IMG/VR virus record: IMGVR_UViG_3300006641_000199
Location: 1-22,516 of that record
Reading direction: 5' to 3' (one strand)
Length of the DNA: 22,516 nt
Source: a virus
A model generated the notes under the pieces. It did no database searches. It saw only the letters and a list, made by a program, of their open reading frames with translations, and was not told the DNA's origin. Position numbers and translations under genes: made by a program. This document shows, in pieces, positions 12,436 through 19,110 of this stretch. Positions within the stretch are counted from its first letter, which is position 1. Every line of letters starts with the position of its first letter.

Positions 12436-12717
12436 ATGAGTACTAGAAGCAAAGTCACATTTATGACTGTAAACGCGTTCAAAAAAGCGATTGGTGTAAA
12501 CTCTATCCAAGTCGTGCGCTACGACAAGGGTGAGAAAGCTACGAACAAGCTCTCTGTTCTGGACGAAGATGGTAATTTCTATCGTTGCCAACAGAGCATT
12601 GACACCTCTAAACCAATGGCTTTCTTAATCGAAGAGAACGCTTCTCTCGATGAAGCCTGCTTGGTTAACGTGAGTGGCACTGGCGAGAGTCCACTGACTA
12701 CCTTGGCAAGTCTCTAA
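12436..12717 (+). CDS. Hypothetical protein with high-expression codon use
   Basis: The 93-residue protein begins MSTRSKVTFMTVNAFKKAIG. It looks like a compact alpha/beta domain (IQVVRYDKGEKATNKLSVLD, then FYRCQQSIDTSKPMAFLIEE). No family was recognised. Codon use differs clearly from its neighbours: it favours C-ending and G-containing codons (TAC, GAC, CGC, CGT, CTC, ATC) where the rest of the window prefers A/T-ending ones. It is the first rightward gene from the divergent region and is followed directly by a 13-bp terminator hairpin. This layout suggests a strongly expressed, perhaps early, protein. Confidence 0.8.
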   Translation: MSTRSKVTFMTVNAFKKAIGVNSIQVVRYDKGEKATNKLSVLDEDGNFYRCQQSIDTSKPMAFLIEENASLDEACLVNVSGTGESPLTTLASL

Positions 12718-12726
12718 TGCCAAGAC

Positions 12727-12763
12727 ACCACCTGACGACAGCAAGTTGTCAGGTGGTTCCTTT
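12727..12763 (+). terminator. Intrinsic terminator-like hairpin after the first rightward gene
   Basis: The stem 12727-12739 pairs with 12745-12757 over 13 bp (one G-U) around the loop AGCAA. The following sequence is TCCTTTG, a weak U-tract, so termination may be partial and allow read-through to the small ORF that follows. Confidence 0.65.
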
Positions 12764-12801
12764 GTCAATTTGATACTCTTAATGGTATCGAAACTACAAT
12801 T

Positions 12802-12894
12802 ATGCTAGCTACCTTCATGCTAGATGGAACTGTTGTACTTGTGAATAGTATCAGAGATGCTATCACTACAGCAGAAGACGTGCGCAATGCGTAA
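12802..12894 (+). CDS. Putative 30-residue small protein
   Basis: An ATG-initiated frame encodes MLATFMLDGTVVLVNSIRDA plus TTAEDVRNA. The frame stays open upstream back to 12736, without another ATG. The codon mix (GTG, CGC, GAC, GTA) resembles the preceding 93-residue gene, and it lies between that gene's hairpin and a strong terminator, so the two probably share a transcript. Without homologues, a chance ORF in a structured 3' UTR cannot be excluded. Confidence 0.4.
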   Translation: MLATFMLDGTVVLVNSIRDAITTAEDVRNA

Positions 12895-12949
12895 GTCTCA
12901 TCCAGAGTTAAGCTTTATCTCTGTCAAATAAAAAGCTTTCACCTATTTA

Positions 12950-12989
12950 TGTGTGTGTTACTGTCAGGGGCAGACACACACATTTTTTT
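12950..12989 (+). terminator. Strong intrinsic terminator
   Basis: TGTGTGTG (12950-12957) pairs with CACACACA (12975-12982), with an inner CTG/CAG pair (12961-12963 with 12971-12973), followed by seven T residues. An additional AAGCTTT/AAAGCTT hairpin (12910-12916 with 12932-12938) lies just upstream. It ends the 12.4-12.9 kb unit and isolates it from the RNA-rich region beyond. Confidence 0.85.
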
Positions 12990-13220
12990 ATTTCAATATT
13001 TCTAAACCACTGAAAATACAATAATTTGGTGGCATTAGATAGCTATAGATACAGCTGTTGTTCAGTTGTGGGTTGTTTATTTTTCACGTAGACTAGAGAT
13101 TGAATGTAGAGCCTAGAATATTCGCTAGGTTAATAGACTAAGTAAAGGATTCTGGTAGTTAGACTTCATTTAGCTACTGCTTTATGGTGATGCATAAACC
13201 ATTGTTTTTTGGCCTTACAT
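12990..13220 (+). other. Gene-free leader to the RNA-rich region
   Basis: No credible ORF is present. Small hairpins are visible: CCTAG/CTAGG (13112-13116 with 13125-13129) and TTTATG/CATAAA (13181-13186 with 13193-13198). An ATAATTTG at about 13021 is one transposition away from the Bacteroidota -7 box. This stretch may hold the promoter and 5' part of the RNA transcripts that follow, but no convincing promoter was found. Confidence 0.35.
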
Positions 13221-13342
13221 AGCCAGTTAGTGCAAGGGTAGCACGTTACTCAGGAAGAGTCTGTATGATATCTACAGACACCTATGTTAGGCCAACATAT
13301 GGGTCTTGAGTAAAAATGGGGGTTCAAGTCCCCCATTGGCCT
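13221..13342 (+). tRNA. tRNA-like gene with an interrupted anticodon loop
   Basis: Standard tRNA parts are present. The acceptor AGCCAGT (13221-13227) pairs with ATTGGCC (13335-13341), six of seven pairs with an A-C mismatch at the end. TA lies at positions 8-9. The D-arm is GTGC-AAGGGTA-GCAC (13230-13244) with the conserved GG. A 4-nt variable loop is followed by the T-arm GGGGG-TTCAAGT-CCCCC (13318-13334) with a consensus T-loop. The anticodon stem TTACTCA/TGAGTAA (13246-13252 with 13307-13313) encloses 54 nt instead of a short loop. That insert holds two hairpins: GTCTGTA/TACAGAC (13259-13265 with 13273-13279) and TATGTT/AACATA (13283-13288 with 13294-13299). No clear anticodon can be read; removing an insert to leave T-TCTTGA would give CUU, but this is speculative. 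CCA is not encoded. Confidence 0.6.
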
Positions 13343-13343
13343 G

Positions 13344-14236
13344 CTCATAGTGTAGAGAATAGAGATATTCTTGAACAACGAGGCGTCAGTACACGCCTAC
13401 AAGGACAGTAATGTCTAGAGACTATGAGGTATTTTTTAACAAACTACAGTTGTTGGTACTACAGTAACCATCTAGGGTGGATAGGTCCTATGAATCTATC
13501 ATTATTATTTAAAGTCTTTTAAGATATTTCCTTGGCTTGCCAGGGCGATTGGCTGCTTATGGTCATAGGATAAACCTAGTGATAGGTATAAAGTGTATAG
13601 TGTGAACAACGCTATATGCACAGGTGGGTGGTGACACTCATTCTGGCCATGTAAGCATACGAGCAACACACTTGATGGAGAAATCTCTGAGAGTGTACAG
13701 TGTTAGCATACGCTGTTGAGTGGGAAACCACAATAGGAATACTCGTAGGAATATGTGAAATGATTCCACCAAGAGTCAAATTGCGTTGACCAAGTGAATA
13801 TAAAGGCCTGGTAACAGGGTCTTAATTCACTCGTAGACTGGTAATCTACACTGGGATGTCATAGTACGTCTTGCTCAAAAGGCAGGAAGCTATATTCTGA
13901 CAACACATCCTGGATTATGCTATTGTTTATTAACATCAAAAATTAATAAATGCAAAAGCTTGTCAGGTGTTCATGTGAAATTGCCTTATGTGTCTGTAAT
14001 ATGACACCATTATGTTCTCGCAAGGAACATTTTGAGATCTAGAGAGTATATCTAAGTAGCTGCAGGGATGTAGCGCAGTGTTCCAACACGCTTGGTAGAA
14101 ATCAAAGTTTATATAGCATGAACAAAGAACCTTCTGGAGAGAAGTAAACTACTGGCAATCCTATCTACAAACTAGTAATAGTTTGTGTGTGAGCATATTG
14201 GTAACAATATGTCGATGATAGGGTCAAAGGTCAATT
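13344..14236 (+). ncRNA. Very large structured RNA (GOLLD/ROOL-like candidate)
   Basis: About 890 nt contain no credible ORF but many consecutive helices. It opens with a four-way junction: CTCATAGT/ACTATGAG (13344-13351 with 13421-13428) enclosing three hairpins. GNRA-capped hairpins occur at 13403-13416 (GTAA), 13574-13587 (GTGA), 13720-13731 (GAAA), 13807-13818 (GTAA), 14167-14186 (GTAA, 8 bp) and 14194-14211 (GTAA, 7 bp). The last two are enclosed by CCTATC/GATAGG (14160-14165 with 14217-14222). Further helices are 13634-13639 with 13691-13696, 13794-13799 with 13825-13830, 13833-13837 with 13845-13849, 13854-13859 with 13905-13910, 13926-13933 with 13943-13950, and 14012-14017 with 14025-14030. 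AGCATACG occurs twice (13654, 13705). Size, GNRA richness and a tRNA-like neighbour recall the GOLLD and ROOL giant RNAs of phages and prophages. It could also be two RNAs, since a T-run follows the first junction at 13432. Confidence 0.65.
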
Positions 14237-14290
14237 CACTCAGCCTTTTATTTCTTTTGTAAACAATCCTCTAAACATAAAATAAACAAA

Positions 14291-14788
14291 ATGCGTAAAT
14301 TCAATCAAACAATCAGCATTGAAATTGAAGTGGATAGCATTGCTAATCAACTTCTTAACACAATCAACCCAGAGTTTAAACATCGTATACCTGTGGTTGA
14401 AGCCATTATTGGCACAGCATTGAACAACAGAGATTCTCAAGCACTTGGCTACATCTTTAACGCTTTGTCAGGTCACTTACCTGAAATTAATTACAAAGTG
14501 GGTGATTTAGTTAATTGTACAGCAACCACTTACATGTATGTTAGTGAGCAAAGTAGAGCTAAAAAAGACTCTGAAAGCGCACCATTGGGTAAGTCTAAGG
14601 TTATTGCAATTAACCCATTCTCTAGCACACCTTTGCAAGTGGAATTTGATTATCATCGTTCAGATGGCACAATCAGAAAAGACACTATGTGGGTAAAAAT
14701 GAATCAATGTTCAAACATTGTTAGAACAAGCGATTGTTCAGATGAAAGCATTGATGGTATTTACAAGTACGAAGACATTTTCTCTTAA
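14291..14788 (+). CDS. Conserved phage hypothetical protein
   Basis: The 165-residue protein has a helical N-terminal half (ISIEIEVDSIANQLLNTINPE, then AIIGTALNNRDSQALGYIFNAL). The C-terminal half is beta-rich, beginning INYKVGDLVNCTATTYMY and containing SKVIAINPFSSTPLQVEFDYHRSDGTIRKDTMWVKMNQC, which reads like a small SH3-type barrel. No enzyme motif is visible. I believe similar 'VGDLV...VEFDY...DT.WV' proteins occur in other Bacteroidota phages, but I cannot name a family. It is followed by a hairpin terminator and preceded by the large structured RNA. Confidence 0.8.
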   Translation: MRKFNQTISIEIEVDSIANQLLNTINPEFKHRIPVVEAIIGTALNNRDSQALGYIFNALSGHLPEINYKVGDLVNCTATTYMYVSEQSRAKKDSESAPLGKSKVIAINPFSSTPLQVEFDYHRSDGTIRKDTMWVKMNQCSNIVRTSDCSDESIDGIYKYEDIFS

Positions 14789-18607: not shown

Positions 18608-19071
18608 GGGGGTGCCTGGATTTGACAGCAAAGAGTAGGTATCATCACATGCGAGGCGCAGTCAGTAGCCAAACCAACTGATTAAAAACAAAGGACAACT
18701 CAAACAATGTTGAACTTTCTGAGTATACCATCGACAGTCTGCTTGCAGAATTGTCTGGTGCTGAGCTTGAATTAGCTTAATCAGAGGAGCAGCCATGCTT
18801 TGCAACAGAAAATGGTAATGTAAAGACATAGGGTCTTCCTGTGACACTGACCATCCAAGACTATATGATGTAAAAAGAAAGCACAAGTGGACTTTTCCTA
18901 GTTTCAAGACACATTAGAAAAAAAACTAGGTGGTGGTTGCTAACCAATAGCCCCAATTACTGTGCAGAAATAACGTGGGTTCACCCACTTGATTGTTTCA
19001 GTACTAAGCATGTAACTAAATGGTGGTATTGACGATTTGTTTGGACGAGGGTTCGACTCCCTCCACCTCCA
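18608..19071 (+). ncRNA. ssrA: Transfer-messenger RNA (tmRNA)
   Basis: tmRNA rescues stalled ribosomes and tags the nascent peptide for proteolysis. The 5' end GGGGGTGCCTGGATTTGACAGC-like start (18608 on) carries the Bacteroidota signature TTTGACAGC. It pairs with CACCTCC (19064-19070), leaving discriminator A at 19071. The 3' part has GACTAAGCATGTA and the T-arm GAGGG-TTCGACT-CCCTC (19047-19063). The likely tag frame runs from about GAC at 18694 to TAA at 18778-18780, starting DNSNNVELSEY and ending GAELELA. At about 28 codons it is far longer than the roughly 9-11 residues typical of Bacteroidota. At 464 nt the RNA is longer than usual. CCA is not encoded. Confidence 0.93.
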
Positions 19072-19072
19072 C

Positions 19073-19110
19073 GACTAGATAGGATAGAAATATCCTAGAG
19101 GCTCTAGTTT
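19073..19110 (+). other. GNRA-capped hairpin directly after tmRNA
   Basis: ACTAGA/TCTAGT encloses TAGGATA-GAAA-TATCCTA, a perfect 7-bp stem with a GAAA tetraloop, beginning two bases after the tmRNA discriminator. It may guide 3'-end processing or be a small stable RNA. Confidence 0.6.

Follow-up and report, generated by a model that had tools for sequence, protein, structure and literature searches.

The window analysed here, a stretch of 22,516 bases that makes up one complete IMG/VR record and is probably a genome fragment, encodes proteins that include a portal, a terminase (TerL) and PhoH. Since the terminase shares 22-29% identity with its counterparts in Crassvirales and in Flavobacterium and Cellulophaga phages, the phage is assigned to the crAss-like group. 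The window also contains a block at 13344-14236 that had been described, on a sequence-only reading, as a gene-free giant structured RNA close to tRNAs. A tRNA-like element is located directly upstream of it, and a tRNA-Arg and a tmRNA are found approximately 4-4.8 kb downstream (Table 1), in line with the closeness to tRNAs proposed in that reading. Genes for tmRNAs with tag peptides were also called by ARAGORN in relatives L060 and L073.

Table 1. Features of the RNA locus and its surroundings, in coordinates of the window.
Feature	Position	Strand	Evidence
Promoter-like motif GGTGGCATTAGATAGCTATA	13028-13047	+	read from the sequences of L041, L065, L058 and L064
tRNA-like element: acceptor, D arm, canonical T arm; anticodon loop replaced	13221-13342	+	RF00005, 41.4 bits, E 5.7e-7, with insert; fold
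Divergent GOLLD RNA gene, ~0.9 kb, including 3' terminator-like tail	13343-14258	+	Rfam match, 5'-domain model, covariation, fold z-score
5' domain	13344-13850	+	nhmmer profile of the window RNA
5'-terminal four-way junction, closing helix CTCATAGT/ACTATGAG	13344-13428	+	MFE and centroid folds
GNRA hairpins	13356-13371, 13404-13415, 13574-13587, 13720-13731, 13807-13818, 14167-14186, 14194-14211		perfect stems of at least 4 bp
GOLLD 5'-domain hairpin GATAA-ACCTA-GUGA-UAGGU-AUAAAG	13567-13594	+	independent covariance model
Conserved 3' domain	13851-14246	+	RF02032 positions 1-416 (all), 92.1 bits, E 2.8e-24
Invariant UCAAAAG loop of the first 3'-domain helix	13875-13881	+	Rfam alignment and other GOLLDs
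A/U-rich variable linker	13914-13951	+	aligned to the Rfam linker region
CUCGCAAGG hairpin loop	14017-14025	+	Rfam alignment, loop pattern
Two-hairpin domain closed by CCTATC/GATAGG	14160-14222	+	two GNRA hairpins inside
Terminator-like hairpin AAAGG...CCTTT and T-rich tail	14226-14258	+	sequence; Rfam 3' end; tails of other GOLLDs
tmRNA gene	18608-19074	+	RF00023, 69.8 bits, E 4.3e-27 over the region

The block is indeed gene-free, as its + strand is free of ORFs of at least 50 aa and the antisense strand contributes just two, of 54-55 aa. The dense series of perfect GNRA-capped helices that had been reported was also recovered, with a corrected count: seven such hairpins, and not six, are present when Watson-Crick stems of at least 4 bp are counted. 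Dinucleotide shuffles of the block contained 0.146 GNRA hairpins on average, with seven or more in 0 of 500 shuffles, and the average elsewhere in the window is 0.07 per 893 nt. The predicted fold is more stable than that of shuffled sequences, with z-scores of -4.5 for 13343-13850 and -5.5 for 13343-14262. Both the MFE and the centroid folds display the four-way junction that had been proposed for the 5' end, and the 3' two-hairpin domain was located with both of its hairpins capped by GNRA loops; this domain carries a UAC-stem-GUGUG element that recurs in other RNAs of the family discussed below. The RNA extends a little past position 14236, to the terminator-like hairpin and T-rich tail. 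An origin from degraded protein genes, which the sequence-only reading had named as the finding that would overturn it, or from an accumulation of chance hairpins has a negligible probability, given that reading frames are closed throughout the block, GNRA hairpins lie far above the shuffled expectation, the helices covary and Rfam yields a family match (both described below); the interpretation as a giant RNA stands.

Whether the RNA was a divergent member of a known family or the first of a new class had been left undecided. When Rfam was searched in E-value mode, the 3' part of the block matched the GOLLD family (RF02032) over the full length of the model, with a score below the gathering score of 150 bits, a value that is the curators' annotation cut-off and reflects no structural feature. 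At gathering thresholds, Rfam reported neither GOLLD nor the tRNA-like element, the tRNA and tmRNA elsewhere in the window being the only hits; both matches surfaced in E-value mode alone. For ROOL, the other family suggested for comparison, there was no Rfam match at E up to 10 in a search of 4227 families over 12700-14300, and BLASTN gave zero matches when either the region or the entire window was compared with 50,697 phage records. A loop pattern taken from the window (TCAAAAG, GCAAAAG and CTCGCAAGG, with gaps) and run on IMG/VR retrieved 27 stretches, and 25 of 26 distinct records tested were GOLLD by Rfam, with 18 of the 26 above the cut-off. A second pattern with a longer linker yielded 40 further stretches (10 of 11 tested records had a GOLLD match at E up to 0.01), and a version with shorter gaps found L021 alone. 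Three pattern hits (L128, L137 and L154) were unlike GOLLD on reading and were excluded.

Evidence for the 5' half was obtained independently of the Rfam model. An nhmmer profile of the window RNA proved collinear through both domains with other GOLLDs, covering query positions 209-776 in L153, 216-905 in L136 and 194-695 in L121. This collinearity starts at approximately 13537, and the preceding ~190 nt (13344-13536) had no match in the profile search except the window's own copy and the relative L041, in which a different sequence occupies the place of the four-way junction. A covariance model built from 17 other GOLLDs, with the window left out, placed its top window hit on the 5'-domain hairpin (33.3 bits, E 5.3e-7; runner-up E 0.02). 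Hairpins of this form, [GA]ATAA-stem-GNRA-stem-AAAG, are common to many GOLLDs at ~260-410 nt upstream of the UCAAAAG loop, and in the window the distance is 296 nt. A small model of the 5' hairpin run on 48 records gave mostly marginal hits and was set aside. Judged by these matches, the 5' half of the window's RNA is part of GOLLD too.

Covariation, which had been proposed as a check, supports the shared fold. Loop-anchored, gap-free segments were used, because a whole-GOLLD L-INS-i alignment was too poor in its 5' part. Three helices (18 pairs) covary strongly across 19 sequences: 88% of cells are paired. For the 5' hairpin this percentage is biased, since its stem played a part in its selection; loop sequence alone served to anchor the two remaining helices. 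Double-change cells numbered 107 versus 34.8 in shuffled data, and the covariation score was 0.776 versus 0.219 in shuffled data and at most 0.161 with partners slid. The two sides of the 3' closing helix beside the UAC-stem-GUGUG element also vary in step in 10 GOLLDs, an observation that counts for less since the helix and its partner were both sought by complementarity. A new class of giant RNA that merely resembles GOLLD could account for the score below the Rfam cut-off and for the 5'-most 190 nt, unmatched in GOLLDs beyond the nearest relatives, but this reading is made most improbable by the match along the entire model (E 2.8e-24), by the 5'-domain hit obtained independently and by the covarying helices held in common. 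We are thus almost certain that the block encodes a GOLLD RNA over its full length (~0.9 kb), divergent in sequence and equipped with the two domains of the family.

Compared with GOLLD as described by RF02032, the window RNA retains the whole 3' domain in order, with the UCAAAAG, GCAAAAG and CUCGCAAGG elements and the conserved CUCAGCC end, which falls within the terminator-like element; it also retains the GNRA hairpin of the 5' domain at the usual distance, the A/U-rich linker, the phage location, a tRNA-type element nearby, and a size of ~0.9 kb in a family of gene-free RNAs of ~800 nt or more. It differs in its score (92 versus 150 bits), in the ~190 nt with the four-way junction at the 5' end and in the loops of the P21 region. 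With ROOL, a cage-forming relative, it shares the size class, the phage location and the proximity to tRNAs, and differs in the absence of an Rfam ROOL match.

The element upstream of the RNA adjoins the closing helix of GOLLD. Its acceptor and D arm are intact and its T loop is TTCAAGT, and through an insert of ~57 nt the anticodon stem reaches 10 bp and gains two further hairpins, the 7-nt anticodon loop being absent from 13221-13342 in both the Rfam alignment and the fold. ARAGORN run on the window called no tRNA at these positions; allowing introns produced mostly implausible tRNAs, and these calls were dropped. Elements that are tRNA-like or partial tRNAs, keeping acceptor and T arm, occur up- or downstream of other GOLLDs ~20 times as often as in the background of the same scan; this figure is approximate, as the scan was a custom one whose limits were fixed. 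The GOLLDs of large phages L004, L007, L009 and L012 are preceded by at least one ~110-nt tRNA-like element with extra hairpins and no evident anticodon loop. Partial tRNAs lie ~475-531 nt upstream of the UCAAAAG loop in L003 and L017, where acceptor and T arm have been kept and the part between them is short or degenerate. The 5' domain of L041 is present without such an element in front, so the tRNA-like element is not obligatory. Cases of a tRNA inside or beside GOLLD have been described before, among them an unexpressed pseudo-tRNA in a mycobacterial GOLLD (PMC6582537).

The intact T loop, D arm and acceptor, together with the 41.4 bits against the Rfam tRNA model, would also suit a working tRNA with a spliced insert that neighbours GOLLD incidentally. 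We consider this highly unlikely, given the negative ARAGORN result, the fact that the insert forms a 10-bp anticodon stem and two hairpins in place of a 7-nt loop, and the occurrence of tRNA-like or partial elements in the same place at other GOLLDs; furthermore, a group I intron would require more than the ~57 nt of this insert.

Fourteen other phage records (including L004, L007, L009, L015, L129, L136, L141, L142, L146, L157 and L165) likewise match GOLLD over the full length of the model, with scores of 62-108 bits that all fall short of 150; their carriers include crAss-like phages and jumbo phages of 344-412 kb. Copies such as those of L136, L146, L129, L142 and L157 and of the 344-412 kb contigs resemble the window RNA in their score range, in the 5'-domain hairpin (most of them) and in the UAC-stem-GUGUG 3' element (many of them); they differ in belonging to other phages, and the jumbo copies come after tRNA-like elements in which an extra hairpin precedes the T arm. 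The GOLLD-bearing contigs L018, L146, L136 and L003 encode distant homologues of the window terminase (25-29%), and, just as in the window, their packaging genes occupy one strand and GOLLD the other, so that the divergent position is shared. A literature search for GOLLD in crAss-like phages returned nothing relevant.

Among 80 PhoH relatives, many of them short fragments, the Rfam GOLLD search matched the near-identical contig 3300025872_000989 alone, and 11 named related genomes gave no Rfam GOLLD match at E up to 0.01. Absence is not firm, because of the short fragments and because Rfam also missed L153 and L041, the latter a PhoH relative whose 5' domain runs up to the contig end. L065 lacks both the tRNA-like element and GOLLD, and a protein gene follows directly. 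The preceding segment of the window, 12795-13052 (+), in which a 30-aa ORF, a terminator-like hairpin and the promoter-like motif can be read, displays 72-75% identity to L041, L063, L065, L075, L082 and L036. The motif is retained in relatives with or without GOLLD, has a similar form in L058 and L064, and is separate from the RNA itself. A gene-free stretch of ~160 nt (13050-13212) leads from it to a hairpin and T run; its counterpart in L065, at 5720-5185 (-), is ~500 nt long, with conserved ends and a different middle, and the stretch is possibly a second non-coding RNA.

With the integration of these findings, the explanation that we hold with good confidence is that of a divergent GOLLD with tRNA-like 5' processing, cage assembly and a late accessory role. 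Transcription would proceed on the + strand, opposite to the packaging genes, and probably jointly with the upstream tRNA-like element. Host tRNA-processing enzymes would recognise the acceptor and T arms and cut at the 3' end of the element, producing the GOLLD 5' end at approximately 13343; this mode of 5'-end formation is a reasonably probable one. The 3' end would be set by the terminator-like hairpin, and folding would give two domains, the 5' one for the cap and the 3' one for the ring, joined by a short A/U-rich linker.

The model for assembly is GOLLD env-38, solved by cryo-EM as a 14-mer nanocage in which the caps are built from 5' domains and the rings from 3' domains, the linker is inside and disordered, and contacts between copies are many and conserved (PMC12286853). 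The window RNA, known from its sequence, is similar in length to env-38 (833 nt) and shares its two domains, short linker and upstream tRNA. By analogy, its copies probably assemble into a hollow RNA-only cage as well, a view to which we lean. It could instead act as a monomer or small oligomer that, for instance, scaffolds host RNA or protein or soaks it up like a sponge. This is possible though rather unlikely: the loops of the P21 region, GGGA and UUCCAA, read by eye and only putative counterparts of loop L21a with its self-complementary dinucleotide, appear to lack the GC or CG pair of the env-38 self-kissing contact, so that assembly could differ, and a single GOLLD has a solved assembly in PMC12286853; against it, both domains and the linker are conserved in the window RNA, and the contacts between copies in the solved structure are numerous and conserved. 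More tentatively, and with a low probability in our view, this lineage may pair GOLLD with a dedicated tRNA mimic that has kept the processing parts and lost the decoding loop and that releases or caps the RNA, the cage, with its altered loops, differing from the 14-mer in size or contacts.

As for function, the likeliest role by analogy would be an accessory one, late in infection, in which the putative cage holds or shields something within the host cell. In Lactobacillus brevis, GOLLD accumulates during lytic growth, yet a prophage could make phage without its GOLLD (PMC7567579); this speaks against an essential role and is the reason for favouring a late accessory one.

The identity of the RNA as GOLLD is unsurprising to a specialist; what deserves following is the breadth of sub-threshold copies, the position common to crAss-like phages and the tRNA-like element. 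Few RNA-only cages are known, and GOLLD forms one of them; at the standard Rfam cut-off, a wide range of GOLLDs from large phages goes unseen, among them those of crAss-like phages and of jumbo phages of 344-412 kb. Their occurrence in the same divergent position extends across crAss-like branches with terminases only 25-29% identical, and, as close relatives mostly have no detectable copy, the presence and absence of GOLLD can be compared between closely related phages. Finally, the recurrent tRNA-like element in front of GOLLD provides a concrete, testable idea of how the 5' end of this RNA may be formed.
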